Shown here piece after piece: positions 4,101 to 42,075 of a DNA stretch of 42,075 nucleotides. Every line of letters starts with the position of its first letter. Position 1 is the first letter of the stretch. Source of the stretch: a virus; the IMG/VR virus record IMGVR_UViG_3300022223_000011, positions 1 through 42,075 of that record. The stretch is one strand, 5' to 3'. Below the pieces are notes generated by a model that was not told the origin of the DNA, did no database searches, and worked only from the letters and a program-made list of their open reading frames with translations. A program made the position numbers and the translations under genes.

Positions 4101-5099
4101 TCACTTATCTTTGCTTATAGGCTTAGGGACATAGTTTTGAATACTCAGTAGTATCTCTTCAAGTAAAGCTTTCTCATGGCGTTTTATGTCGTTAATATTG
4201 GTTACTTTACATAGTTCATGCATTAGTTCGCCGGCAGCATTCATATCAATGTCAAATTCCATAATCTTTTGGTCAAATGTTTTTTTAATCTCGTTACATA
4301 GAATTGCTTTCTCTTCGCGTAATTTCTTTCCTTTCTCTAGTTCTTCTTGCTGCTTTTTGTTAAACTCTTCTTGTTCTTTTTCAAAGTCAACGCCGTGAAC
4401 CTCGTCCATTACCTGAACTAAATTGTCAACTCTATTATCATTGTTGAAGCGTGGCCATTCTTTTGCCGCTCTACGTATCATTGTTTTTTTGACCATTTCT
4501 TCGTAGTCTGATTTCCATGGTGAGCTATTTGGTTTATTGATATAGGACTTGGAGTTCCTGTCTCTTATTTTATGGACCTCTTCAATTAACATGTGATCGC
4601 TTATCCAGTCTCCGTGAATTGTTTTAGCTGCACAAAAAACACCTACTATCTCTCCCCTTTTTTTATCAAAAGGTTTGAAAGAGTGAATTGGCTCTTTGTC
4701 TAGCCCTTGGTATTCAAATGTGTCGTTTTCGCGAATTATTCTTGCTTTCACCAAGACAACAGATCCACTCGTAGTAGCTACCTCTTTCATCCCATAGTAA
4801 GAAACATCAAGACAAACCTTGCCATCTCTAGGGACTAGGTAAGCTGATTTTTTAGCAGGGTTTAAGGATAGACCAACTGCGGCGACGTTTTTAATTGCGT
4901 GTTCAAGTGACTCAGGATTAGTGGAAGCTATTTGTAATAAATATTCGTTAGACTTAAGCAATTGCAAAGCAAACTCGCACTCTTTTTTAAAGTTCATTTG
5001 CTCGACAGTTTTAATAGCGTTGAATGTGTCTTCTAGTTTATAAATATCTTTTTCGGCTAATTCTAATGCGTTTTTCTTTACTTGCTGTTTATTATTCAT
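4101..5099 (-). CDS. recT: RecT-family single-strand annealing protein
   Basis: 332 residues, near the usual RecT length plus a C-terminal extension. The family signature is clear in the first 230 residues: the GLSLNPAKKSAYLVPR stretch, VSYYGMKEVATTSG, a region matching the conserved Asp/Trp-containing core (GDWISDHMLIEEV), and KKTMIRRAAKEWPR near the end of the core. Residues about 235-280 are a Glu/Lys/Gln coiled coil. RecT anneals complementary DNA strands during phage recombination and replication. The neighbouring Gp157 supports this assignment, because the two commonly occur together. No exonuclease (RecE-like) gene is visible nearby. It converges with the plus-strand HNH gene. Confidence 0.92.
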   Translation of the reverse strand: MNNKQQVKKNALELAEKDIYKLEDTFNAIKTVEQMNFKKECEFALQLLKSNEYLLQIASTNPESLEHAIKNVAAVGLSLNPAKKSAYLVPRDGKVCLDVSYYGMKEVATTSGSVVLVKARIIRENDTFEYQGLDKEPIHSFKPFDKKRGEIVGVFCAAKTIHGDWISDHMLIEEVHKIRDRNSKSYINKPNSSPWKSDYEEMVKKTMIRRAAKEWPRFNNDNRVDNLVQVMDEVHGVDFEKEQEEFNKKQQEELEKGKKLREEKAILCNEIKKTFDQKIMEFDIDMNAAGELMHELCKVTNINDIKRHEKALLEEILLSIQNYVPKPISKDK

Positions 5100-7462: not shown

Positions 7463-7480
7463 ACGTTAATTATCGTGCGT
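7463..7480. repeat. Direct repeat copy containing TTATCGTG
   Basis: ACGTTAATTATCGTGCGT occurs here and again, identically, at 7958-7975, so the two copies flank the Dam gene. Here the sequence also encodes the last residues of Dam (THDN-stop). It contains one TTATCGTG half-site of the palindromes found at 7948 and 8299. Confidence 0.7.
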
Positions 7481-7933
7481 TGATATTTTACGCCAAAAGT
7501 AAACAATTACCGTGCCAGAATTATTTCCCTTTTTTGGCGAACCTGTTTCGGGATCAATGAAACTTATCCTTGATTTTAAAATGTCATAATGAAAATTACC
7601 GTAAATAAAATCATGCCAAGGTGCCGAGTCCATAGAGTTGACCGGCAAGATCATAACGCATGTTTCACAACCATTTTCGAGCACTTCATTTGATGCCTTT
7701 TCTATCCATTTAGCCTTTTCAGAAAACGGCGGGTTACAAAAAACCCTTTCGCCCCTCCATGATAGATTAAGTCCGTTTATTCCCTTATCGATGTAGGCCC
7801 CTTTTTTTGATTTACAGTTTTCAGTACTACAAGCGGCATCTAGCGTAAAACAAAATTTTCTATTTAATTGTCTATAGATAAAGTCAGGTGTTTCAAATAT
7901 GTCTAAGCCTTTTCCTTTTTGGTTTACATTCAT
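7466..7933 (-). CDS. dam: Phage Dam-type DNA N6-adenine methyltransferase
   Basis: 155 residues. The ETPDFIYRQLNRKFCFTLDA opening, CNPPFSEKAKWIEK with the catalytic NPPF at 67-70, and the SWRGERVF segment match the phage DNA N-6-adenine-methyltransferase family (Dam, pfam05869). This family transfers a methyl group from SAM to adenine in DNA, giving protection from host restriction or a mark for regulation. Its length fits the family. The ATG at 7933 follows GAGG and sits 15 bases after a palindromic site. It is one of three methyltransferases in the window. Confidence 0.88.
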   Translation of the reverse strand: MNVNQKGKGLDIFETPDFIYRQLNRKFCFTLDAACSTENCKSKKGAYIDKGINGLNLSWRGERVFCNPPFSEKAKWIEKASNEVLENGCETCVMILPVNSMDSAPWHDFIYGNFHYDILKSRISFIDPETGSPKKGNNSGTVIVYFWRKISTHDN

Positions 7934-8403: not shown

Positions 8404-8460
8404 TTAGAGTGAGGACCCGAGTGAGTCCCATTTGTTACCATAGCATTTACCTAGATTCAT
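8404..8460 (-). CDS. SL-repeat cassette C6, truncated
   Basis: This encodes MNLGKCYGNKWDSLGSSL and then stops, so it has the shared 14-residue start and only one tetrapeptide repeat. Its ATG overlaps the stop of cassette C5 (ATGA), with AGGAG from the C5 tail codons as ribosome binding site. It marks the downstream end of the array and may be a broken copy. Confidence 0.55.
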   Translation of the reverse strand: MNLGKCYGNKWDSLGSSL

Positions 8461-8645
8461 TTGCTTCTCCTGAATGAGGGCCAGAGTGAGTACCAGAGTG
8501 AGGACCTGAGTGAGGTCCTGAGTGAGTCCCCGAATGAGTTCCAGAGTGAGTACCAGAGTGAGGTCCCGAGTGAGGACTCGAGTGAGTACCAGAGTGAGGA
8601 CCCGAGTGAGTCCCATTTGTTACCATAGCATTTACCTAGATTCAT
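8457..8645 (-). CDS. SL-repeat cassette C5, 62 aa
   Basis: The shared start MNLGKCYGNKWDSL is followed by eleven x-x-S-L units (for example GSSL, WYSL, ESSL, GTSL; two end in F) and the tail RRSK. The first repeat position is W, G, R or E and the second Y, S, D, N, T or P. The codons for the terminal RR of C4 (AGG AGA) provide the ribosome binding site for this gene, and the start overlaps the C4 stop by four bases. The regular four-residue period suggests a solenoid or fibrous fold. Function unknown. Confidence 0.7.
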   Translation of the reverse strand: MNLGKCYGNKWDSLGSSLWYSLESSLGTSLWYSLWNSFGDSLRTSLRSSLWYSLWPSFRRSK

Positions 8646-8854
8646 TTGCTTCTCCTGAGTGAGTTCCTGAGTGAGGACCAGAGTGAGTACCAGAGTGAGG
8701 ACCTGAGTGAGGACCTGAGTGAGTCCCAGAGTGAGTCCCCGAGTGAGTACCCGAGTGAGTACCTGAGTGAGTACCCGAGTGAGTACCCGAGTGAGTACTC
8801 GAGTGAGTACTCGAGTGAGTCCCATTTGTTACCATAGCACTTACCTAGATTCAT
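8642..8854 (-). CDS. SL-repeat cassette C4, 70 aa
   Basis: The shared start MNLGKCYGNKWDSL is followed by thirteen x-x-S-L units (EYSL, GYSL, RYSL, GDSL, WDSL, WSSL and others) and RRSK. It lies nine bases after the DUF6745-like gene with AAGGG before the ATG, so it is the only cassette whose ribosome binding site is not made from a previous cassette. The other two frames are also open because the 12-base unit has no stop; the xxSL frame is chosen for its ribosome binding site, shared start and ATGA coupling. Confidence 0.72.
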   Translation of the reverse strand: MNLGKCYGNKWDSLEYSLEYSLGYSLGYSLRYSLGYSLGDSLWDSLRSSLRSSLWYSLWSSLRNSLRRSK

Positions 8855-8865
8855 ACATATCCCTT

Positions 8866-10050
8866 TTAATCTATTACTTCTCTGCTTTCTTCTAGCCAGT
8901 GGTCATACTCAAGAACCTTTTTTATTTCGTAAACCCCTCTTTTTAGATTTACATTGTTATGCTCAGGGTGCTGAATGGAGCAATTGTCCATTGCTTCTAA
9001 AAATCTTTTCCCATTTTCGCTCTCATATATATTGCATGAAACCCCTATATGCCTCACTAGCCCCTCTGCTGCTACATTGCTTTTTGTTAGCTTAGCATCT
9101 TCTGGTACCTTATTTGCCTTAAAGAACAAAGCGTCGCCTTGCTGGTGGTATTTAATAGCTTGATTTTTCGCAAATGACATTCCGTCTAATGTCTCAGGTA
9201 GCGCAAATTTTGTGAGTTGATTTCTAAACATTATCGCATCGTCTACATTTTCACTTTTAGGGTCAACTCCTTCGATGTGAATTGTTTTAATTGAAGGGTT
9301 TTCCATTTTTAAAAAGGGTCGAACCCTTGAGTCTCCAAGGTCAACACCTAATAATTGATACCCATTTTTTTCGTCAATTACTTCTGGGTTTAATATTTTA
9401 ACGAGCACGTCTGCCGGTATCTTCCTGACAATTTCTCTTCTTACGTCCGCGTTTTTCTCGTTTAAGATATCTTCTTTAGTGAAGTCTTCTGGTTTTTTCA
9501 TAACAATTTCTTCAGTAACATCAACATTATTTAGCTTCCAAACATTGTTTCCGTCTGCATATTCAATAGCAGGACCATCTGAACAATGAAGAGTCTCCTT
9601 GTCATCTAATGTTGAAATTTTTATAGGTCTTTGCGATAGAAGTATGCCTGATTCAAAAATTAAGAATGGTCCACACTCTTCGACAATACTCTCCATTACT
9701 TTTATTTTTTCCAACTCCTTATTTACGCCTAAGACGTTTACAATGAACGAGCAAAACGCTACCCAGTAATTATTTAGATTCCCCCAGCAAATTTTTGAGA
9801 CATAATCCGAAACGCTCCCTCCTGCATGTTTAGCAGCAAACTCACACATAGCCATCGGTGATTCGAAAACTTTATATTTGTAATTAATATCTAGATTTAA
9901 GTCCAGCACCTTGTATAGGCCCTTGATAGCAGTAACTGCCCTTTCTTCGTTTATCCTTTCAGTTAATAAACACTGTTTTAAAAACTTTTCTTTGTAAACT
10001 TCGACTTGGGCTTCTTGTTCCTTTGTCATTTTAGTGATTAAATTTGTCAT
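8866..10050 (-). CDS. DUF6745-like protein
   Basis: 394 residues. The middle contains LNNYWVAFCSFIVNVLGV, then a SQRPIKIS ... LHCSDGPAIEYADG segment and NADVRREIVRK. These correspond to the YWxAFY, RP, LHxxxGPAxxYxDG and NxEVRR landmarks that I associate from memory with DUF6745 proteins. In many of those relatives a run of xxSL repeats lies inside the chain just before the YWxAFY part; here that position (about residues 85-100) has no repeats, but separate small repeat genes flank the gene on both sides. The ATG at 10050 follows AAGGAAGG. An in-frame upstream extension through the repeats (to 10353) was rejected. Biochemical role unknown. Confidence 0.65.
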   Translation of the reverse strand: MTNLITKMTKEQEAQVEVYKEKFLKQCLLTERINEERAVTAIKGLYKVLDLNLDINYKYKVFESPMAMCEFAAKHAGGSVSDYVSKICWGNLNNYWVAFCSFIVNVLGVNKELEKIKVMESIVEECGPFLIFESGILLSQRPIKISTLDDKETLHCSDGPAIEYADGNNVWKLNNVDVTEEIVMKKPEDFTKEDILNEKNADVRREIVRKIPADVLVKILNPEVIDEKNGYQLLGVDLGDSRVRPFLKMENPSIKTIHIEGVDPKSENVDDAIMFRNQLTKFALPETLDGMSFAKNQAIKYHQQGDALFFKANKVPEDAKLTKSNVAAEGLVRHIGVSCNIYESENGKRFLEAMDNCSIQHPEHNNVNLKRGVYEIKKVLEYDHWLEESREVID

Positions 10051-10093
10051 GTTCCTTCCTTTTTTAGCCATTGTTAAACAAGCTTGTTGTTTA

Positions 10094-10372
10094 TTATTTT
10101 TTAACGAGGTTTTTACTACCTCTCCTGATTGAGTTCCAGAGTGAGTCCCTGAGTGAGGACCAGAGTGGGTTCCAGAGTGAATCCCAGAGTGAGTCCCAGA
10201 GTGAGGACCAGCGTGAGTCCCAGAGTGAGGACCAGCGTGAGTCCCTGAGTAAGGACCAGCGTGAGGACCTGAGTGAGAACCCGAGTGAGTTCCTGAGTGA
10301 GTCCCTGAGTGAGGACCAGAGTGAGGACTCGAGTGAGTCCCATTTGTTACCATAGCACTTACCTAGATTCAT
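10094..10372 (-). CDS. SL-repeat cassette C3, 92 aa
   Basis: The longest repeat gene: shared start MNLGKCYGNKWDSL, seventeen tetrapeptide units and a different tail (RRGSKNLVKK) instead of RRSK. Several units have drifted (SSR, SLL, NPL, NSI). It ends 43 bases before the DUF6745-like gene and is coupled to C2 by ATGA. The extra tail and drift suggest an older copy at the junction with the core gene. Confidence 0.68.
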   Translation of the reverse strand: MNLGKCYGNKWDSLESSLWSSLRDSLRNSLGFSLRSSRWSLLRDSRWSSLWDSRWSSLWDSLWDSLWNPLWSSLRDSLWNSIRRGSKNLVKK

Positions 10373-10569
10373 TTGCTTCTCCTGAGTGAGTTCCTGAGTG
10401 AGTTCCAGAGTGAGGACCAGAGTGAGGACCTGAGTGAGTACCAGAGTGAGTACCAGAGTGAGTCCCCGAGTGAGTCCCCGAGTGAGTCCCCGAGTGAGTA
10501 CCTGAGTGAGTACCCGAGTGAGGACTCGAGTGAGTCCCATTTGTTACCATAGCATTTACCTAGATTCAT
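10369..10569 (-). CDS. SL-repeat cassette C2, 66 aa
   Basis: Shared start MNLGKCYGNKWDSL, twelve units (ESSL, GYSL, RYSL, three GDSL, two WYSL, and others) and RRSK. The start overlaps the C1 stop and the stop overlaps the C3 start. AGGAG from the RR codons of C1 precedes the ATG by six bases. Confidence 0.72.
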   Translation of the reverse strand: MNLGKCYGNKWDSLESSLGYSLRYSLGDSLGDSLGDSLWYSLWYSLRSSLWSSLWNSLRNSLRRSK

Positions 10570-10766
10570 TTGCTTCTCCTGAGTGAGTTCCAGAGTGAGG
10601 ACCCGAGTGAGGGCCAGAGGGAGTCCCCGAATGAGTTCCAGAGTGAGGACCAGAGTGAGGTCCCGAGTGAGGACTCGAGTAAGGACTCGAGTGAGGACTC
10701 GAGTGAGTACCTGAGTGAGTACCAGAGTGAGTCCCATTTGTTACCATAGCACTTACCTAGATTCAT
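10566..10766 (-). CDS. SL-repeat cassette C1, 66 aa
   Basis: Shared start MNLGKCYGNKWDSL, twelve units (WYSL, RYSL, ESSL, GTSL, WNSF, WPSL and others) and RRSK. The length equals C2 although the unit order differs. It is coupled to the short ORF C0 upstream by ATGA. Confidence 0.72.
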   Translation of the reverse strand: MNLGKCYGNKWDSLWYSLRYSLESSLESLLESSLGTSLWSSLWNSFGDSLWPSLGSSLWNSLRRSK

Positions 10767-10822
10767 TTGCTTCTCCTGAGTGAGGACCATTGATAACAGT
10801 AACGCTTGTCTTCTAAATCCAT
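10763..10822 (-). CDS. Short leader-like ORF C0 of the repeat array
   Basis: This encodes MDLEDKRYCYQWSSLRRSK: only one repeat unit and the standard RRSK tail, with a different N-terminus in which RYCYQWSSL loosely resembles CYGNKWDSL. Its AGG AGA codons form the ribosome binding site of C1. It may be the remnant of a longer gene or a true leader of the array. A 16-codon ORF (10813-10863) overlaps its start. Confidence 0.45.
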   Translation of the reverse strand: MDLEDKRYCYQWSSLRRSK

Positions 10823-13042: not shown

Positions 13043-13744
13043 CTATTTAAAAAATTCTTTTGCAATTTGTTCCATTTCAGAGGGCGTTGCTGCGTGCACG
13101 CTATCTCTGAAAAGCTTCCCTTTGAATTTTATATTATTCTTATCTTCCTCTAAAACAAAATGCTTCTCGATTAGTGGAACTTTAAGCATTGAAATACATT
13201 TCATGCAGGTCTGGACACCTATTGAATGATCACTTAACCCTATATCGAATCTTCCTGTAAACTTCTGAACTGCCCTCATTGGTAAATCTGGACTTGGCTC
13301 ACAGTAAGGTGTGGCAAACATGATTTTGGCGTTTTTTATTTTAACAGGGTTAAACCTGTCTATTGTTAGTGAGTTAATAGAAAGAAAAACCTCTTCCTTG
13401 TCCCACTTCTTAGGGTTCATTAAAAAGCTACTTGCAAACTGACCGGCAGCTAGTTTTTTCCAATATAAAAATGACTTGAGCCTGTCGTGCTTCTTGCTGA
13501 ATATAGAATAAAAAACGTCTATACCTATATCCCTTCCGTACTCAATTAGGTCTATATAATATTCGGTAGACATGGAAACTTTCTTGTAAAAGGCCCTTGG
13601 CATAGAGCCAGTACAGTCTTCATCTATCGCCTGAAGCTTCACAAGGTTAGCTCCACTCTCTTTGGCAACGCGAATCATTTCTTTCGCCTTTTCAAAATCT
13701 CCAAGGTGGTTATTACCTATTTCCGCTATTAAGTATTTTTTCAT
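13043..13744 (-). CDS. NeuB-like nonulosonate synthase, short form
   Basis: 233 residues. AEIGNNHLGDFEKAKEMI, GANLVKLQ (Lys36, Gln38), GLSDHSIG (169-176) and IEKHFVL (192-198) are signature segments of the NeuB family, which condenses phosphoenolpyruvate with an amino-sugar to form sialic, legionaminic or pseudaminic acids. The usual enzyme has about 340 residues; this one lacks the C-terminal antifreeze-like domain, and part of the barrel between residues 100 and 165 seems compressed. It may be a divergent or specialised synthase, or inactive. The ATG at 13744 overlaps the previous stop (ATGA). Confidence 0.8.
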   Translation of the reverse strand: MKKYLIAEIGNNHLGDFEKAKEMIRVAKESGANLVKLQAIDEDCTGSMPRAFYKKVSMSTEYYIDLIEYGRDIGIDVFYSIFSKKHDRLKSFLYWKKLAAGQFASSFLMNPKKWDKEEVFLSINSLTIDRFNPVKIKNAKIMFATPYCEPSPDLPMRAVQKFTGRFDIGLSDHSIGVQTCMKCISMLKVPLIEKHFVLEEDKNNIKFKGKLFRDSVHAATPSEMEQIAKEFFK

Positions 13745-13944
13745 AAAAATCCTAAAGGAGTCCATATGTCTGAATAATTCAACTCTCCATCATTTAACCA
13801 ATCATCTATTTTTGCAAGTTTATCGTTATATTCGTCAATATCGAACTCATTAATAATAGCTTCCGTTTGGAATTGAAGTGAACCAATATCTACTGTAAGA
13901 ATGTATATAGAATTAAAGAAAATATTATAAAATGCAAACTCCAT
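13741..13944 (-). CDS. Hypothetical acidic protein, 67 aa
   Basis: The first 25 residues are hydrophobic and aromatic (MEFAFYNIFFNSIYILTVDI); the rest is acidic (FDIDEYNDKLAKIDDWLNDG). It is coupled to both neighbours by overlaps inside the glycan cassette. No family is recognised. An accessory role for the flanking enzymes is only an inference from position. Confidence 0.55.
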   Translation of the reverse strand: MEFAFYNIFFNSIYILTVDIGSLQFQTEAIINEFDIDEYNDKLAKIDDWLNDGELNYSDIWTPLGFL

Positions 13945-14345
13945 TAAAACGAACTCTCCTTTAAAAATTTCTCAAACTCTTGGTCCCTTTTCTTTTTCTT
14001 AGACCTTTCAATTGAAAGCTGGTGTATGCTTAAAGTTTTAGCAGCATCGGGATTATCTAACTTGCAGGGAAACTTTTCTCTGTAAATCGACTTAACCGTT
14101 AGTTCAATTGACCTATTCATTCTAATAAAAAGATCGACTATTTTACTAGTATTCATTTTCTTTTTTACCAAGTCATCCATTCCTGCCTGAATACCGTATC
14201 GCGTCTTTTTTAGTTCCTCTATGTCTCTTTTTAATAAACAGCTTGCTAGCCAAGCATTCCACTTGTCATTGTTACTGCTAATAAAAAGCTTAAATAAATC
14301 TATTGCCGGCCATTGTCTGGTTCTGCTTTTATTGTTGACTTTCAT
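13944..14345 (-). CDS. Hypothetical basic protein, 133 aa
   Basis: A Lys-rich helical protein (RSKKKKRDQEFEKFLKESSF at the end) with a Trp-containing N-terminal third. It overlaps the end of the cytidylyltransferase-GT2 gene by 17 bases. No catalytic motif or known fold is visible. It lies in the middle of the glycan cassette. Confidence 0.6.
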   Translation of the reverse strand: MKVNNKSRTRQWPAIDLFKLFISSNNDKWNAWLASCLLKRDIEELKKTRYGIQAGMDDLVKKKMNTSKIVDLFIRMNRSIELTVKSIYREKFPCKLDNPDAAKTLSIHQLSIERSKKKKRDQEFEKFLKESSF

Positions 14346-15630
14346 TGCTGTTTAAAATTTCCTGTTTTATTTTTTCTCTTTCTTTTAGATTAGTCCTTGA
14401 AAGGCTGCCCTCTGTGTGCCTGTAAAAAAAAGTAGGGTAGTGATAGTAATCTACTTTTAGCCGATGCCTTGCCCTGGTTATCCAGTCAAGCCCTTCATAT
14501 CCTCTAAGTTTCTCAGTAAATTTAATATAGTTCAGAGAAGACCTCTTGGCGATCGCACCGCCCATGTGGTGGTTTTTGTTTCCATTCACTACCTTTTCAA
14601 AGCTACCATCAAAATAACAAGGATAAACTATATCTGCCTCAAGGTAATTAATGTAACTGCACAGTTCACTAAGGTTGTCGTTGTTGGCCAAATAGTCATC
14701 GGCATCTAGCCTTAAAACATACTCTCCCTTAGCTTGGGATATTGCTAAATTACTAGACGCTGCTAGCCCTATGTTTTCTTTGTTCTCAATATATCGAGCG
14801 AACTTAGTTGTGTTGCAAAAATTCTGCATTATCTCGGCAGTTCTATCAGTTGAACCATCATTTATTAAAAGGTATTCAAAGTCAAAGTTTTGATTGCGGA
14901 CAGACTTAAGGCATTCATTTAGATGCCTATCTGCGTTTTTAGCGCACGTATACACAGTTAACCTAGGAAGCCTATACGGCAGGTCTTTTGAGTTGTTTCT
15001 CAAATAATCTATTGCCGCTTTTTTAGTGCTGTCTCCCCTAAGGTTTTCTATTAGATTACGAATGCTCTCAAAATCTTCGGGATAATCAATCATTAACCTA
15101 TCTTCGTAACTATCAAAGCTCATCTTCCCAATTTTGCCAGGTTCAAGAACTTCCCTTATTGCGTATGATATATGCTCTACTGCACCAAATTTATTACACG
15201 CTTTTTCTAGTGCCTTAATCGAGATTATCTCAAATCCCGTGCCCTCTGTTTGAGGGGAAAGATAAAGGTAGTCTAATCCCCTAGTTTTAAAGTTTGCCAA
15301 AGCTTGCATGATCTCTGCTGAGTCAACAAAGATTTTATCATGGCAAATTCTTACTATTTCAGTAAGACCATACTTAAGAGCTGTTTTATACATCCTTCCC
15401 ATGGGATTGTGGTAATTGATTATATCTCCATGAACTTCTGCTTTTGAATTAACTAAAATGCTATCGTAGTAAGATTTTTCGGCGAGGGGAACGGATACTA
15501 TAGTAGGAATACAATCGGGCATATTATTAACAAGTCTTCTAATAACTGGTATACCCATTATCTTTCTAGCTGCTTTTCCTGGCACTCTACTAGAGCTCAA
15601 TCTTGAGCAAATAATTACACCGGCAGGCAT
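14329..15630 (-). CDS. Cytidylyltransferase-GT2 glycosyltransferase fusion
   Basis: 433 residues and two domains. Residues 1-200 carry CSRLSSSRVPGK (8-19), RICHDKIFVDSAEI and YPEDFESI, typical of SpsF/NeuA-like cytidylyltransferases that activate an acidic sugar as a CMP or NDP form. Residues 220-420 are a GT-A family 2 glycosyltransferase: LTVYTCAKN, DGSTDRT (258-264), the DADD metal site (309-312) and a YEGLDW segment. The fusion links activation and transfer of a sugar. With the NeuB-like enzyme next door this suggests a complete branch for making and attaching a nonulosonic-acid-like sugar; the acceptor is unknown. Tandem ATGs at 15633 and 15630 are both possible starts. Confidence 0.8.
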   Translation of the reverse strand: MPAGVIICSRLSSSRVPGKAARKIMGIPVIRRLVNNMPDCIPTIVSVPLAEKSYYDSILVNSKAEVHGDIINYHNPMGRMYKTALKYGLTEIVRICHDKIFVDSAEIMQALANFKTRGLDYLYLSPQTEGTGFEIISIKALEKACNKFGAVEHISYAIREVLEPGKIGKMSFDSYEDRLMIDYPEDFESIRNLIENLRGDSTKKAAIDYLRNNSKDLPYRLPRLTVYTCAKNADRHLNECLKSVRNQNFDFEYLLINDGSTDRTAEIMQNFCNTTKFARYIENKENIGLAASSNLAISQAKGEYVLRLDADDYLANNDNLSELCSYINYLEADIVYPCYFDGSFEKVVNGNKNHHMGGAIAKRSSLNYIKFTEKLRGYEGLDWITRARHRLKVDYYHYPTFFYRHTEGSLSRTNLKEREKIKQEILNSNESQQ

Positions 15631-16574
15631 CATGAACTCCAATTAAATTTATATCCCTCGTAAGATTCAAAGCTCGAGCAATTCTTGCAAGGGTCCATGT
15701 TGAATGCTTTTTTACTTATTAAATCCCTTCTCAATCTAGCAGCTTTTTCAGACCCAAATATTTCCCATATGGAGTCTTTTTTAATATCACCTAAGCATAG
15801 TTCTTCTTTAATGTCCGGGCAGCAGGGAAACGCCTTGCCTTCATGGTTAAATATCAATCTAACATGTGCCTGATAACAGCTTTGCCTTCTCACTGCCCTT
15901 TCTTTGTCCTCAAGCTCGGTGACATCCTTTTCCACTCTCCCTGCTACCATGTCACGAATCGAAACAGTTGCCTCCGGCCATAGCTTTTTAGCTTGCGCCT
16001 CAATGTCTTCATCTTTGTTTAACTTGGTTCTAACCGCCTGGATAACCAGTTCAGTCTTTCGACCGGGCCAGTTGTAGAACTTATTAATATTATCCAATGT
16101 AACCTTGTGAATCCCTCCGGCCCTTTGGTATTCGAATACGTTGGCCAGAAATGAGTCAAATGATACCTTAACCTTTGTCTGGCACGCTAGGCCTTTAAAT
16201 ATGTCATCCTTGCTTGTGTCAAATTTAAAGTTAGAGTTAGTTAATCTGTCTATGTATGCACTGCTCTGAGATAACACTCTAGCTGTGTGACAAGCAAAAT
16301 AAAAATGAGGGCTAAGGGTTGACTCCCCTTTCCAGTTAAGCTTTACAGAACTAACGCCGGCCAAAGAACCCTGTATTAATATATCCTTTATTGTGTCTTT
16401 ATCCATATGACCGCGTTTAAATGGTAAATTCTTTGGGTCGGAATGATAGCAGTACCCACATTGCATATTGCAGGCACTAGACAATTCCAAGGATATATCA
16501 ACAGGGGTATCTAGTTTTAAGTGTCTCCCGTATTTATATTTAAACCTGTAAAGATAGTAACTTAGACTATTCAA
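15630..16574 (-). CDS. Radical SAM/SPASM-domain enzyme
   Basis: 314 residues. The CNMQCGYC motif (Cys35, Cys39, Cys42) binds the catalytic 4Fe-4S cluster; NWKGESTLSP corresponds to the GGEP-like segment. The C-terminal part has FPCCPD, an EELCLGD segment and DPCKNCSSFE, a SPASM-type auxiliary-cluster pattern. Such enzymes modify sugars (epimerisation, dehydration) or peptides by radical chemistry. Here it sits directly before the cytidylyltransferase-GT2 gene, so sugar modification is favoured, though peptide or tail-protein modification cannot be excluded. The start appears to be TTG after an AAGGAAGGGG stretch. Confidence 0.82.
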   Translation of the reverse strand: MNSLSYYLYRFKYKYGRHLKLDTPVDISLELSSACNMQCGYCYHSDPKNLPFKRGHMDKDTIKDILIQGSLAGVSSVKLNWKGESTLSPHFYFACHTARVLSQSSAYIDRLTNSNFKFDTSKDDIFKGLACQTKVKVSFDSFLANVFEYQRAGGIHKVTLDNINKFYNWPGRKTELVIQAVRTKLNKDEDIEAQAKKLWPEATVSIRDMVAGRVEKDVTELEDKERAVRRQSCYQAHVRLIFNHEGKAFPCCPDIKEELCLGDIKKDSIWEIFGSEKAARLRRDLISKKAFNMDPCKNCSSFESYEGYKFNWSS

Positions 16575-23301: not shown

Positions 23302-24297
23302 CTAGGTAGTTTCTAAAAATTTCAAATCATGCTTACGATTAATTCTATCTAATTCTCTACTAATTAGAAACATTTGATTTCTTGCTTGTGTTAATAAATT
23401 GTTAAGCGTGTTTTTAACCTTAGCGTCCTCTGGGTCGAACATGTACTGCATTTGCTTTTCAAGAGTAGACTTTCTTGATGTAGATAATATGGTTTTCTTC
23501 GTGCATTGGATAACTGGTAAATTAAATGTCGTAATATATTTGGCCAACCACTTAGCACTGAAAAGTAAATTACCAGATGAGTAACAAAACTCACCGTCTT
23601 CCCTGACGGTGAGCTGATGACGCATATAATGGGCCTTGCCCCCACCATACTTGTCAAACGCATAGTATGATTCTTTATCTGACCATGAATAGTCGAAGCC
23701 TATTAATAGTATTTTATCATATCCGAAAAAATTCTGTCGACCATTTTCGTCTGATTGCGTCAATAGAACCACCATTGCGCCAGAAACATTTGTCGCCGCT
23801 GCTATCCCATTAGGACATCCAGACAATTCACCGAATTTTTTTTCAGATCCCAAAACGTCTTTATTAACTGTGAAGTACATATCCTTCCAGTTTCCATTTT
23901 GCGCCCATTTAGGATTAGCGCAAACATTCATAAAGAGAATGGTTTTATCTAACTTGTCCTTCCATTTCTCCATGTATTTTTCGTAGCTAACATTTGCATC
24001 TGCTACCACACAGAAGGTCGGGGTTATACCGTGATCAAGTAACGGACCTAGTGTCTTATCACAACATAGAATATCTACGTTATCCTGATATTTTTTAATT
24101 GTTTCTAGTTCGTGTTCAAAAGAATACCCATTGGCAATGCAAAGTACTGCTCTACCTACTCCACAATCTCTAAAACACTCAATTGATTTTTTTGCATACT
24201 TAGCATTCTCTTTAGCATGCTTCTCCCATTTTTCACCAAACTGCCTAATAACGGCCTCTGATTGTTTTCTAATTTGGCTTGTTGACATTTCACTCAT
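23302..24297 (-). CDS. DUF115/Maf-like glycosyltransferase
   Basis: 331 residues. The block VLCIANGYSFEHELETIKKY, VDILCCDKTLGPLLDHGITP and FCVVADANVSYEKYM follows the DUF115 pattern (nucleotide-binding loop, then xxDxxLxxLLxxGIxPxxxVxxD). In many bacteria this domain occurs in Maf proteins, which attach nonulosonic acids to flagellin, and in MptE-like enzymes. Further down, GFDYSW resembles the conserved second half. Here it is embedded between the tail terminator-like gene and the tail tube, an unusual place. With the NeuB-like and cytidylyltransferase genes it suggests glycosylation of a tail protein. The substrate is an inference. Confidence 0.75.
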   Translation of the reverse strand: MSEMSTSQIRKQSEAVIRQFGEKWEKHAKENAKYAKKSIECFRDCGVGRAVLCIANGYSFEHELETIKKYQDNVDILCCDKTLGPLLDHGITPTFCVVADANVSYEKYMEKWKDKLDKTILFMNVCANPKWAQNGNWKDMYFTVNKDVLGSEKKFGELSGCPNGIAAATNVSGAMVVLLTQSDENGRQNFFGYDKILLIGFDYSWSDKESYYAFDKYGGGKAHYMRHQLTVREDGEFCYSSGNLLFSAKWLAKYITTFNLPVIQCTKKTILSTSRKSTLEKQMQYMFDPEDAKVKNTLNNLLTQARNQMFLISRELDRINRKHDLKFLETT

Positions 24298-33679: not shown

Positions 33680-34438
33680 CTACTTGGGAATTTCTGTGCC
33701 ATTGATTCGATTCCTTGCTATCTCAAAATATTTTTCGTCTTTTTCTATTCCAATAAATTTGCGGTTTAAGTTTTTACACGCAACGCCAGTTGATCCTGAT
33801 CCCATTGTGAAATCCAATACTGTTTCGTTTTCTAGCGTGTAGGTTTTGATTAGGTATTCTAATAGTGCAACTGGTTTTTGGGTTGGGTGTGTTCTGTTTA
33901 GCGGGTTGCACTCTTTGGCTCTCATGTTAAATGTTATCAAATGTTTTGGGTATCTTTTTGTAGTATCAGACTTTGGTATAAAGCCGTCCTTGAACCTGCT
34001 CATTAACTCGCTTTTTTGAGGGGCCTTTATATGCGGTCTTATGTTTCTCGGGTCCGCATTAACCATTTCTGGATAGTAATTTAGCTTCCCTCTGCCAAAC
34101 ACTGATATTATTTCGGTGGTTTTCATGGGCATTATTTTGTTATTTATGGGGTTACCCCCGGATACCTTATCCCAAATCCAATCATACTTAAACATTTTCA
34201 AATTACTCATTCTTAAATGACTTGAAAAAGGCTCACTGCCAAATAAACAAATAGCTCCATTGTCTTTTGTAATTCTTTTCAACTGTTCCCACATCGGCTC
34301 AAATGGAATTACATTGTCCCATTTACAGGCAGTAGTGCCGTAAGGTGGATCAGTTAAAACCATATCTATTGATTTATCTGGAATATCTTTCATTACCTCT
34401 AAGCAGTCGCCGCAGACTAACATAAAGTCACTGCTCAT
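33680..34438 (-). CDS. DNA N4-cytosine/N6-adenine methyltransferase
   Basis: 252 residues. TDPPYG (29-34) is the catalytic motif IV and LDFTMGSGSTGVACKNLNRK holds the SAM-binding FxGxG-type motif I, placed after the catalytic motif, so this is a beta-class (N6_N4_Mtase) enzyme. It probably protects phage DNA from restriction or marks it for packaging. A THPTQKP segment is conserved in this family. It lies between the small and large terminase genes, with the ATG at 34438 overlapping the previous stop. Confidence 0.9.
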   Translation of the reverse strand: MSSDFMLVCGDCLEVMKDIPDKSIDMVLTDPPYGTTACKWDNVIPFEPMWEQLKRITKDNGAICLFGSEPFSSHLRMSNLKMFKYDWIWDKVSGGNPINNKIMPMKTTEIISVFGRGKLNYYPEMVNADPRNIRPHIKAPQKSELMSRFKDGFIPKSDTTKRYPKHLITFNMRAKECNPLNRTHPTQKPVALLEYLIKTYTLENETVLDFTMGSGSTGVACKNLNRKFIGIEKDEKYFEIARNRINGTEIPK

Positions 34439-34814
34439 TACTATCCTCGCCCTCAATGTCTTTCATTGCTTGCATTAAAGCAGCATGACCCGTAAGTATG
34501 CCGCCGCTATGCTCTTGCTTTTGAGGTATCCTGCCTATCAACCGACTGACTAAATAGTCCTGAGCGGTAACGCATTGCTTTTTAATTGCCCTGTTAATTG
34601 CACTTATAATCATAGCGTCAAGCGCGGACAGATTGGGGTCTTTCGTTAACTCTTTGAGTTCACTGATCGACATGTGCATGTACTTATTAATAGCTTTGTC
34701 GTGCGCTGCCTTGTTTAAGGACCTTGCTTCCTTGAGCTCTTTAATGCCCTCAGGCCTACCCTTGCCAAACTTGTTGCCTTTTTTGAATTTGTTTTGTGGG
34801 TTAGGATTTGCCAT
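34428..34814 (-). CDS. Terminase small subunit-like protein
   Basis: 128 residues. PQNKFKKGNKFGKGRPEGIK at the N-terminus is the KxGxSGNPxGRPxG-like pattern (DUF5681 style) that occurs in small-terminase-like proteins. The helical core follows (SALDAMIISAINRAIKKQCV). Located near the large terminase with a methyltransferase between. A role in recognising packaging DNA is inferred by position and pattern. Confidence 0.68.
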   Translation of the reverse strand: MANPNPQNKFKKGNKFGKGRPEGIKELKEARSLNKAAHDKAINKYMHMSISELKELTKDPNLSALDAMIISAINRAIKKQCVTAQDYLVSRLIGRIPQKQEHSGGILTGHAALMQAMKDIEGEDSNEQ

Positions 34815-35829
34815 TACTGAACCATTGTTTATGTATTTCTCTGCTTATATTATGCATCATGAGAGGGGGGACGGACATACCTATTAAATGCTTTGGGTTC
34901 GTATTTACAAACTTATAATCTAGTGGATAGCTTCCGCCTAATTGGAGCTCCCTGGTTGTTAGTTCCCTTGGGTATTTATAATGATATGCCTTAGTTCCAC
35001 CATCTCCAATTATAGTATTTAGGGGCCTCTTGGGGTGGACCCTGGACGCTCCGAACAGGTGTCCCTTGGGGTGGTATTTAGAAAATGACTCACCTGGATT
35101 TGCCTTTTTCCAGTACTCTATCTGCCCATTGGTAACGCCCTTGGCCTCGACGTTGCCCTCATCTATTTCGTTAAAGGTTATCTGCGGCAAGGCAAAGGCC
35201 ATCTTTAGCTTCCCCCAACCCAAGTCCCTTCTTTTACAAATAAAAAATACTCTTTCGCGCTTTTGCGGAACCCCCATTGTCGCAGCATTTAACAAGAACA
35301 GCTGCACATTGTAGCCCGCCGTTTTAAAGAGCTCATTAATTTGCTTAACGTAGCCCTTGGCATTTCCCATTAATAACCCCTTAACGTTTTCAGCAATAAC
35401 AACTTTTGGCTGTAGCTTGTGGGCCAAATCGATAAAGTGAAAAAACAAGTCATCTAATATCTGCTCTGATTGACCTTCTCTAAACTTTTTCTTTTTACCC
35501 CATGCTTTTTCCCTGGAGCCTGCCATGGAGAAACTAGAGCATGGAGGCGATCCATCAAGTATGTCTAAATTATATAACTCTTCAGGTAAATCCTTTCGTA
35601 GTTTAAAACTTCTTATGTCTTCAACGTACAGGTATTTAGGATTATGATTAATCTTATAAACTTCTGCCATCTTTGGATCTATTTCGTTGGCGCCTATTAC
35701 ATCAAATCCGCTCATTTTATAACCCATTGTCGAGCCACCGCCACAAGCAAAGCATGAAAATACTTTTAATCCGTTTTTAGGAACGTTATCAAGGTCGGAT
35801 AGTTTCCATTTGTAAGTAAATTCAGTCAT
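34801..35829 (-). CDS. C5-cytosine DNA methyltransferase
   Basis: 342 residues. Motif I FSCFACGGGSTMGYKMSGF, motif IV GSPPCSS with catalytic Cys97, motif VI AENVKG (Glu147), motif VIII QKRERVFFICK and motif IX-X (PLNTIIGDGG, then LTTRELQLGGSYP and IGMSVPPLMM) are all in order, so it is probably active. It transfers a methyl group to cytosine C5. The target recognition region (about 200-265) is short. The ATG at 35829 overlaps the ParB-like stop. Confidence 0.93.
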   Translation of the reverse strand: MTEFTYKWKLSDLDNVPKNGLKVFSCFACGGGSTMGYKMSGFDVIGANEIDPKMAEVYKINHNPKYLYVEDIRSFKLRKDLPEELYNLDILDGSPPCSSFSMAGSREKAWGKKKKFREGQSEQILDDLFFHFIDLAHKLQPKVVIAENVKGLLMGNAKGYVKQINELFKTAGYNVQLFLLNAATMGVPQKRERVFFICKRRDLGWGKLKMAFALPQITFNEIDEGNVEAKGVTNGQIEYWKKANPGESFSKYHPKGHLFGASRVHPKRPLNTIIGDGGTKAYHYKYPRELTTRELQLGGSYPLDYKFVNTNPKHLIGMSVPPLMMHNISREIHKQWFSNGKS

Positions 35830-36319
35830 TGAATTCAAACCCGCATTTTGGACAAGTGTGTTCTAGATCGTTGCCGAAATTATCCAAATCTATTTCTTTA
35901 TTTGAGCTGGGACCTCCGTCACTTTCAGCTATGCCAAAACTGTTCTCACTAAAGCCCCACTCCATTAAGTCGTCCATTTCAAACTCGTTAGCAAGAATAT
36001 CGAAGTCCCATGCGCCTGCCTGGTTTTTGTTCATGCGAATTAGTACAGCTTCCTCTTGCTTTGGAGTTAGCTTTCGATCAGGGACTAGTACTTTAATTTC
36101 TTGGTTCGGATCTTCTTTCTTTAAGACCATGCATCGGGCGTGCCCAGAGAGTATTGTGTTATCTGTGTTGATGTTGATATACTGTGCATACCCGATGTCA
36201 TCAAAGGAACTTTGAAGCTCGTTAAGACCTAATTCTGTTATGATTCTGGGGTTCTTGTCGTAAGGTTTAAGATCGGAAACTTTTCTAGTTTCAACGTGCC
36301 AAGTAATTCGTTTACTCAT
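35822..36319 (-). CDS. ParB-like nuclease-domain protein
   Basis: 165 residues. VSDLKPYDKNPRI and NTILSGHARCMVLKKED match the ParB/sulfiredoxin-like fold (ParBc), where the G-H-x-R element is conserved. The middle is acidic, and a CPKCGF pair at the end looks like a remaining half zinc ribbon. ParB-domain proteins are often next to phage methyltransferases and terminases and may act as DNA-binding or CTP-using partners. It is the first gene after a possible promoter, so it may start the late gene set. Confidence 0.82.
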   Translation of the reverse strand: MSKRITWHVETRKVSDLKPYDKNPRIITELGLNELQSSFDDIGYAQYININTDNTILSGHARCMVLKKEDPNQEIKVLVPDRKLTPKQEEAVLIRMNKNQAGAWDFDILANEFEMDDLMEWGFSENSFGIAESDGGPSSNKEIDLDNFGNDLEHTCPKCGFEFND

Positions 36320-40271: not shown

Positions 40272-41066
40272 TTACTTACTCATTGCTCGGAATTTATTAT
40301 TGTCTTTTATCGCGCCATGAATTAATTCAGAATCAGTTATTAATGAAAGTGATTCCATGTTTTCTGGGAAACATTTACCAGAATAACCTAGCCCATGATG
40401 CCCTGGAACATCTAAATGCATTGGTGAGAAAAACCCTGTAATATTTATAAGCCTCTTTACAATGTCGTAATTCGCTCCGTACCTTTTGCAAAGATCATAG
40501 AATACATTAGCATAAGTAACCTTCACAGCGCCCAAGCAGTTGTGCATATACTTACAAAGCTCTGCTTCTATATTACTTGTGAAAACATGTTTTTTCCCTG
40601 GGAACATCATTCTAATATTTGGATCGTCCTCTCCGCCACATATTACATCTAACGCAAATATATCATTAAGCGCTCGGCTCTCTGTTAAAAACTCAGGCAT
40701 GTGAATTACGTTCGCACTATGCACTCCGTTTAACAGGTCTGTCGTGCAAGGCAAAACTGTTGACCTGATAACGGCGGTCGCCCCTGGTTGCATTAACTTT
40801 AAAATGCTCACTATGTTTTCTGTACGCTGAAGGCGGTTACTGTTATCCGTTAAAACAGGAACACAAATAAAAACATAATCACATTCCTTGATATATTTTT
40901 CGTTGTTATACCCCTTATCAGGGTCATGTAAAAGCAACTCAAAATTATTCCAGAACTGACTCTCGACAGACGTCTTCCAAAATGATTCTTCTTTTTTCAT
41001 GCAATGTTGAAAAAAAGTTTTCAAGGCTCCGCCAACTGTTCCAACACCAGCTATTCCAACCTTCAT
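40272..41066 (-). CDS. UDP-glucose/GDP-mannose dehydrogenase-like protein
   Basis: 264 residues. GIAGVGTVGG (4-13) is the NAD-binding Rossmann loop. VFICVPVLTD, RSTVLPCTTD, MPEFLTES and AELCKYMHN (Lys172, Asn176) follow the family order, and GLGYSGKCFPEN carries the catalytic Cys232. Family members oxidise NDP-sugars to uronic acids and have 390-450 residues; this one stops after the catalytic loop and lacks the C-terminal sugar-nucleotide-binding domain. It may act on a different substrate or need a partner. It lies in one unit with an epimerase-like gene and an RNA ligase. Confidence 0.8.
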   Translation of the reverse strand: MKVGIAGVGTVGGALKTFFQHCMKKEESFWKTSVESQFWNNFELLLHDPDKGYNNEKYIKECDYVFICVPVLTDNSNRLQRTENIVSILKLMQPGATAVIRSTVLPCTTDLLNGVHSANVIHMPEFLTESRALNDIFALDVICGGEDDPNIRMMFPGKKHVFTSNIEAELCKYMHNCLGAVKVTYANVFYDLCKRYGANYDIVKRLINITGFFSPMHLDVPGHHGLGYSGKCFPENMESLSLITDSELIHGAIKDNNKFRAMSK

Positions 41067-41779
41067 TTTAAGTCCCCTAAAAATATTTCGTGGTTCTTGT
41101 TGAATATTTCTTGATCCATGTACAGTCCGCTCCTATGGTCCGGTCTCACATATTTTGCAAGAAAATTGACCCCGTTTTTGTCCTCATATCTGTACACAAG
41201 TCCTTCTGATTTATCTGCCCCGTGTTTATTATATCCGTCTAGTATCTCCATTGCCGTACTGATGCTTACTGGTTGCCCATACAGCAACAGCCTGGGCATT
41301 ATAAATTCAGAGTCAATCCTTTCGACAAAATCATGAATCACTAGTCTTTTGTTATTTTTATTAAATATATCAAATGCTACAAAAGGTTCATGTTTTAACT
41401 CGTATTTTGTTGTGTGAACTTGCAACAGCCATTCTGCGCAAATCCTCTCTCCCTCTTTTAGAACTCTCTTAAACCTTTCGGTGTTAAAAATAACCCAATC
41501 ATGAAATATTCGATGTTGTTTATATGGCGAAGTAATGGCCAAGTATCCGGCCCTCGTCAATGGCAATAGCTCACCATTGGCCAGTGCGACCGAAACACAA
41601 CTGCCATCTAACTTTTCTTGAACAACTACATTATCTGTCTTGTTCTTGAGCTTCTCGGTTAACATCTTTACTTGGCCCATGGTGATTCTTTTATCACCTA
41701 TATCCGCCCTACTACCTGGAAGGTGAGGTATGCTACCATAAGCTTTTCTTTGAAGCGGTTTCGATCTATTACTGTCCAT
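41063..41779 (-). CDS. RNA ligase (nucleotidyltransferase)
   Basis: 238 residues. YGSIPHLPGSR near the start is a known feature of one phage and bacterial RNA ligase family. The catalytic motif I is EKLDGS with Lys56, motif III has AEW (115-117), motif IIIa is FVAFDIF (133-139), motif IV EGLVYR (192-197) and motif V AKYVR (208-212). All are present, so it is likely active. It seals RNA breaks, for example to repair tRNA cut by a host defence nuclease. No polynucleotide kinase is nearby; the HAD-like protein at 5.2 kb could supply a phosphatase activity, but this is a guess. Start ATG at 41779 overlaps the epimerase stop. Confidence 0.85.
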   Translation of the reverse strand: MDSNRSKPLQRKAYGSIPHLPGSRADIGDKRITMGQVKMLTEKLKNKTDNVVVQEKLDGSCVSVALANGELLPLTRAGYLAITSPYKQHRIFHDWVIFNTERFKRVLKEGERICAEWLLQVHTTKYELKHEPFVAFDIFNKNNKRLVIHDFVERIDSEFIMPRLLLYGQPVSISTAMEILDGYNKHGADKSEGLVYRYEDKNGVNFLAKYVRPDHRSGLYMDQEIFNKNHEIFLGDLK

Positions 41780-42075
41780 GCCCAAACCTTTTAAACCATT
41801 TAATTGTATTCACTACTTGCTTATCTGGGTTTATTAAATCAGTTTCCTTATAAAAATCACCTAGTAAATTCTGCATTGTAAAATTAGAACCAAATGCCGC
41901 AATAACGTCTGACTTCCTTGGTCCAGTGAATTTTATTCCAGCTTTGTTTTCGTAAATATCGTTAACCAGTTCGGCTACTCTGTAGATGGAAACCATGTTA
42001 CCTGTGCAAACATTAAACGCTCTTTCACTGCTAGACATATAAAGAAGCCTAGAGATAACCTCGGCAACTAAATAC
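41769..42075 (-). CDS. NAD-dependent epimerase/dehydratase, partial
   Basis: The C-terminal ~101 residues of a gene that continues beyond the right edge; the frame is open to the window end, so the ATG at 42038 is probably internal. FNVCTGNMVSIYRVAELVND matches the NVGtGxxxSixelaxxi segment of extended short-chain dehydrogenases, such as UDP-glucose 4-epimerase or dTDP-glucose dehydratase families. It acts on NDP-sugars and with the neighbouring dehydrogenase-like gene suggests sugar-nucleotide synthesis. The catalytic domain is outside the window. Confidence 0.75.
   Translation of the reverse strand, partial: YLVAEVISRLLYMSSSERAFNVCTGNMVSIYRVAELVNDIYENKAGIKFTGPRKSDVIAAFGSNFTMQNLLGDFYKETDLINPDKQVVNTIKWFKRFGHGQ

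Follow-up and report, generated by a model that had tools for sequence, protein, structure and literature searches.

Gene organization of the locus

The window is the whole stretch of DNA that was analysed, namely a 42,075-base virus record of IMG/VR (IMGVR_UViG_3300022223_000011). We found that six small genes with a common start (MNLGKCYGNKWDSL; cassettes C1-C6) and a short ORF, C0, flank a DUF6745-like gene on the minus strand, as the preliminary description had stated. The coordinates also agree with its arrangement of three full cassettes before this core gene (C1-C3) and two plus a stub after it (C4, C5, and C6). The features are as follows.

10763..10822, minus strand: C0, a 19-aa ORF (MDLEDKRYCYQWSSLRRSK) with a single repeat unit and an RRSK tail bearing the C1 ribosome-binding site
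10566..10766, minus strand: C1, a tetrapeptide-repeat cassette of 66 aa with start ATGAATCTAGGTAAG and end AGGAGAAGCAAATGA
10369..10569, minus strand: C2, a tetrapeptide-repeat cassette of 66 aa with a 4-base overlap with C1
10094..10372, minus strand: C3, the longest cassette (92 aa), with the C-terminus RRGSKNLVKK, 5' of the core gene
8866..10050, minus strand: the core gene, 394 aa from MTNL, with DUF6745 at residues ~114-211 and a C-terminal QGDV-like domain at ~300-394
8642..8854, minus strand: C4, a tetrapeptide-repeat cassette of 70 aa that begins 11 bases past the core stop, with AAGGG upstream
8457..8645, minus strand: C5, a tetrapeptide-repeat cassette of 62 aa with a 4-base overlap with C4
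8404..8460, minus strand: C6, a stub cassette of 18 aa (two repeat units, then TAA)
10130..10736, unstranded: tandem array with a 12-bp period, 5' of the core gene (Tandem Repeats Finder)
8481..8824, unstranded: tandem array with a 12-bp period, 3' of the core gene (Tandem Repeats Finder)

Four of the cassettes (C1, C2, C4, and C5) end in RRSK. For the core gene, the upstream ATG at 10071 is an alternative start that gives 401 aa. The repeats in the window far exceed chance expectation: Tandem Repeats Finder gave scores of 268 and 360 at a period of 12 bp and of 628 and 867 at the cassette period of 185/197 bp. In addition, the coding strand of the window array is open in all three frames. Thus, openness alone is weak evidence for the SL frame, and the frame is decided by the relatives. 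This openness, by which ORFs are easily obtained, also favors a selfish or neutral minisatellite, in which slippage expands a 12-bp repeat in DUF6745 or next to it and the small ORFs arise as side effects with no role. However, the starts, tails, and overlaps of the cassettes are kept, and we consider a minisatellite quite improbable.

A phage sugar-modification gene set, consisting of a NeuB-family protein, a cytidylyltransferase-glycosyltransferase fusion, and a SPASM-domain protein, lies together at 13043-16574 of the window. The record also encodes an MptE-like protein (23302-24297), a UDP-glucose/GDP-mannose dehydrogenase-like protein (40272-41066), an RNA ligase-like protein (41063-41785), and three DNA methyltransferases (33680-35838 and 7466-7933), namely an N6/N4, a C5-cytosine, and a Dam-like one near the cassettes. 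Two small genes are found upstream of C0 (10948-11468), and the second weakly matches Rz-like spanin and holin profiles (E 0.0076 and 0.14).

Junctions between cassettes

The cassette-to-cassette junctions read AGGAGAAGCAAATGA. The C0-C1, C1-C2, C2-C3, and C4-C5 junctions have the identical context CTCAGGAGAAGCAAATGA, and C5-C6 has TTCAGGAGAAGCAAATGA. In this layout, a Shine-Dalgarno-like sequence from the RR codons is followed by a 4-base ATGA stop/start overlap, and the stop/start overlap between successive window cassettes was found at 5 of 5 junctions. It had been proposed earlier that the RR codons form the ribosome binding site of the next gene and that ATGA links stop and start. This holds for the window and for L107, but the Shine-Dalgarno part is missing in several other chains: among the 61 overlaps found across chains, it was strong in 15, weak in 14, and absent from 32. 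Furthermore, ATGA or GTGA overlaps occur despite dissimilar tail peptides (ERWIE, KENLK, REDLTP, RGIK, DDIQ, and RRSK). Judged from these junctions, the ATGA overlap is a more general feature of the chains than the tail Shine-Dalgarno.

The chains themselves varied among loci. For instance, the cassettes of L107 start with VIPLGKPL and carry GGAGG in the tail as a strong Shine-Dalgarno, those of L092 mostly start with MKTLGKPV and have an RGIK or RSIK tail, and the L064 chains have QGQLS or similar tails. At L058, five cassettes with ERWIE or ERWAE tails come straight after the core. QV units were found at L134, L136, L137, L139, L140, and L157, and L157 has the highest count per locus, with 17 cassettes when alternate-frame ORFs are left out.

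The core protein and its candidate QGDV partner

A search with the 394-aa protein, suggested along with the preliminary description, matched the Pfam DUF6745 model (PF20530; E = 2e-10, 40.6 bits, cut-off 27). The window core is 41% identical to its relative in L002, 35% to that in L004, and 33% to that in L003, and an alignment showed that all three have in-chain xxKV or xxSV repeats just before the YWxxFY segment. The in-chain repeats that the preliminary description had ascribed to DUF6745 proteins are therefore present at the homologous position. The accompanying claim that the core is free of repeats at this position is right as to an array, but about two degenerate units, GGSVSDYV, remain. 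With GGSVSDYV only, the window core does not belong with the DUF6745 proteins that have an in-chain array of many units. In addition, it shows no break at the insertion point.

Scans of viral contigs and bacterial genomes gave 204 DUF6745 domains, 164 of which were nonredundant. QGDV adjoins DUF6745 in 68 of 164 loci, with a median gap of 20 bp. The last hundred or so residues of the window core appear to correspond to this small QGDV protein, as suggested by the alignment with L002, by the common QGD...EYDHWLEE pattern, and by a weak profile match of residues 358-384 to phrog_27831 (QGDV; E = 0.013). The pair of QGDV and DUF6745 known from phages, Streptomyces, and cyanobacteria thus appears to be present in the window too, where the two would be fused, as they are in L002, whereas QGDV is a separate protein elsewhere, including L003, L004, and Microcystis phage LMM01. 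In the bacterial genomes sampled, the DUF6745 genes are mostly without repeats, and many have QGDV next door. Three genomes from the same phylum as the L128 genome (Xenococcus), G928, G971, and G1153, have six or seven DUF6745 matches each, and QGDV is adjacent at many DUF6745 loci in this phylum.

The AF2 model of the core had a mean pLDDT of 86.3. A fold search of the PDB with the core matched no solved fold (best E 0.23), so no function can be read from the fold. Meanwhile, the search of BFVD gave three matches at E ≤ 0.001, namely the LMM01 DUF6745 protein and two uncharacterised phage fragments. A profile search of PDB sequences gave nothing useful; a match of a QV cassette was rejected, being only a low-complexity GQMP stretch. 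PADLOC-DB (known anti-phage defence systems) and NCBIfam gave no relevant match.

In-chain repeats and free-standing cassettes

Among the 164 nonredundant domains, 110 had in-chain repeats, 24 were repeat-free with cassettes nearby, 22 had neither, and 8 were cut at a contig edge. Placed after the N-terminal helices and before the YWxxFY segment, the in-chain repeats consist of 4-residue units with the grammar xx[S/Q/N/K/A][V/L], and they lie outside the Pfam DUF6745 domain match. Several of the 22 genes with neither retain one to three units. At L033 (4452-4906), there is an in-chain xQAT array (DQATRQATYQAT) of different grammar and the same period, which the detector did not count. The in-chain arrays have between a few and about 70 units, and AF2 renders the repeats of L002 as long helices at low confidence (pLDDT about 50-72). 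Both observations would suit a structural arm, in which the repeats act as a spacer, a scaffold, or a multivalent segment through their length and copy number and not through their sequence, so that splitting just raises the dose. We regard such an arm as somewhat unlikely.

Free-standing cassettes were counted with a strict detector, since looser detection gives false positives among the in-chain loci. Of the 46 repeat-free genes whose 5' end is complete, 24 have such cassettes next to them, and none of the 110 repeat-bearing genes does (Fisher test, 7e-16). When the loci were limited to those with flanks of at least 1.5 kb on both sides, the value was 2e-10, and for flanks of 3 kb it was 4e-8. 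The window has this split arrangement, in that its tetrapeptide-repeat genes are free-standing and adjoin a DUF6745 gene that is free of repeats. In a FastTree tree, the cassette state changed about 12 times, at least 7 of them on starred (well-supported) branches. Both the restriction of cassettes to repeat-free neighbors and their recurrence on the tree stand against a minisatellite. Phylogenetically independent pairs were on average 3.5 in the expected direction and 0 in the opposite one, which is not significant after correction for shared ancestry. The earlier suggestion that the repeat part works in trans is favored indirectly by the presence of cassettes only beside DUF6745 genes without in-chain repeats, but this association does not reach significance once shared ancestry is considered.

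The split module was seen on about 20 different contigs from several lineages, all of them metagenomic, and no split locus was found in any isolate among the DUF6745 loci surveyed. The DUF6745 genes in the bacterial genomes, searched as short stretches, were mostly without cassettes or repeats, and the exact start MNLGKCYGNKW had no match in the viral contigs. The restriction to metagenomic contigs, which often end inside arrays, could mean that the cassettes arose in assembly, by wrong joining of copies of a single in-chain array. However, start, tail, and junction are separate for every cassette, the window core is unbroken at the insertion point, and in-chain arrays are also known from isolates, in plasmid and phage records that have been deposited. 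Because many unrelated contigs carry the arrangement, it is not the artefact of one assembly, and misjoining seems to us hardly credible. None of the refuting outcomes named in the preliminary description was observed. Upstream of DUF6745 at L009 (1647-2764) and L144 (2552-3525), there are small ORFs with a four-residue hydrophobic period and no clear repeats, which are possibly decayed cassettes.

Variation of the repeat units

In the 89 in-chain arrays, base 1 of the 12-mer was polymorphic in 89 of 89 and base 5 in 80%, and the other bases were polymorphic less often; third codon positions were polymorphic in few arrays. Single-base codon variants were 194 nonsynonymous to 8 synonymous at codon 1, 119 to 7 at codon 2, 39 to 15 at codon 3, and 29 to 30 at codon 4, so that codons 1 and 2 together had 313 nonsynonymous and 15 synonymous variants. 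The 72 cassette units of the window likewise vary mainly at codons 1 and 2. R, G, and W account for 80% of the residues at unit position 1; between units, the choice is mostly among W, R, G, and E at position 1 and among D, A, S, and N at position 2. Variation mainly at positions that change the amino acid would point to selection. Furthermore, the focus on codons 1 and 2 with nearly fixed silent sites, and the regular preference for W, R, and G and for D and A, would not be expected of a pure spacer.

Ser at position 3 is spelled with TCN codons in 23 arrays and with AGY codons in 21. Since Ser is written in both ways, the repeat pattern is maintained at the protein level, and the same amino-acid pattern from different codons argues against a minisatellite.

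Near-identical phages were also compared. Five metagenome records (L131-L135) have identical DUF6745 genes (854/854 bp), and their long downstream blocks are 99.6-100% identical to that of L134, with L133 free of mismatches over 7,221 bases. Nevertheless, the number or the length of the cassettes is not the same in L131, L132, L134, and L135, and the cassette arrays of L157 and L158 likewise differ; any single array difference could be an assembly error, as short-read assembly of repeats may miscount cassettes. By this comparison, 12-bp units and whole cassettes are gained and lost between near-identical phages. Differences of this kind are consistent with a structural arm, as to length and number, and with a minisatellite, as to copy number.

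Most of the variation falls on two specific bases of the unit, as might result from targeted mutagenesis by a diversity-generating retroelement or something similar. However, 15 contigs, the window among them, yielded no reverse transcriptase (these records may be fragments), and repeat units are common to, and shuffled between, cassettes and strains, which points to recombination. We therefore judge targeted mutagenesis very improbable. The RecT gene of the window (4101-5099) was considered as a recombination partner and rejected as a regular component of the system, because RecT and ERF each occurred in just 1 of 24 records tested.

Comparison with known systems

In-chain DUF6745 proteins, such as Mycobacterium phage prophiGD102-1 gp38 and the one in phage record MW202476.1, resemble the window in core domain, repeat grammar, and placement. 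However, their repeats are in one chain, whereas those of the window are in separate, multiplied, and overlapping genes. No paper on the in-chain repeats was found in the literature searched. Searches for DUF6745, PF20530, and repeat peptides also found no mention, in a literature that left most subscription papers and all bioRxiv preprints outside reach; no description of the split cassette arrangement was found there either, and one may exist elsewhere.

The repeat units of TAL effectors have 33-35 aa and a known DNA-reading fold. The window resembles them in having near-identical DNA repeats that vary at few residues, but its units have 4 aa and no such fold. Diversity-generating retroelements are similar in the focused amino-acid variation of a phage protein, and differ by their reverse transcriptase, of which the 15 contigs gave none. 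Pentapeptide-repeat proteins (PF00805) also have short uniform repeats, with a period of 5 instead of 4; a Pfam scan of two window cassettes gave no match.

Proposed function and implications

On balance, we favor a split DUF6745 module, in which multiplied, exchangeable, and rapidly recombining repeat arms would serve the DUF6745-QGDV protein in trans. In the window, about two degenerate units are left of the insertion, and small genes chained together on either side of the core encode the repeat domain instead. This chain may make several different repeat arms at similar levels, and these arms would dock on, or act with, the DUF6745-QGDV protein and so replace the missing in-chain arm. The variable residues would be surface positions under diversifying selection, giving one core a repertoire of interchangeable arms. 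The weakest step of this proposal is that the arms would bind a changing target, for example a host factor or a defence component, and not be mere spacers.

We infer the function of the module from its anatomy, that is, from separately made and interchangeable repeat arms. That the DUF6745 module acts against a varying host target is a guess, and a structural role is the main rival to it. A complete repertoire system, in which overlapping mini-genes make recognition arms and recombination of 12-bp units rewrites a two-residue code under selection to track a changing target, is a speculative and, to our judgment, unlikely extension of the split module.

Most phage members carry the domain in cis; it has repeatedly been found outside the core gene, multiplied into a series of genes that overlap. 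This is a rare and testable case of evolution from a domain to a gene array. DUF6745, which occurs in phages, actinobacteria, and cyanobacteria and has no known function, gains QGDV as a candidate partner and the repeat arms as a candidate variable subunit. Furthermore, the variation of the arrays gives access to the question of the target, and any molecule contacted by the arms should show parallel variation.
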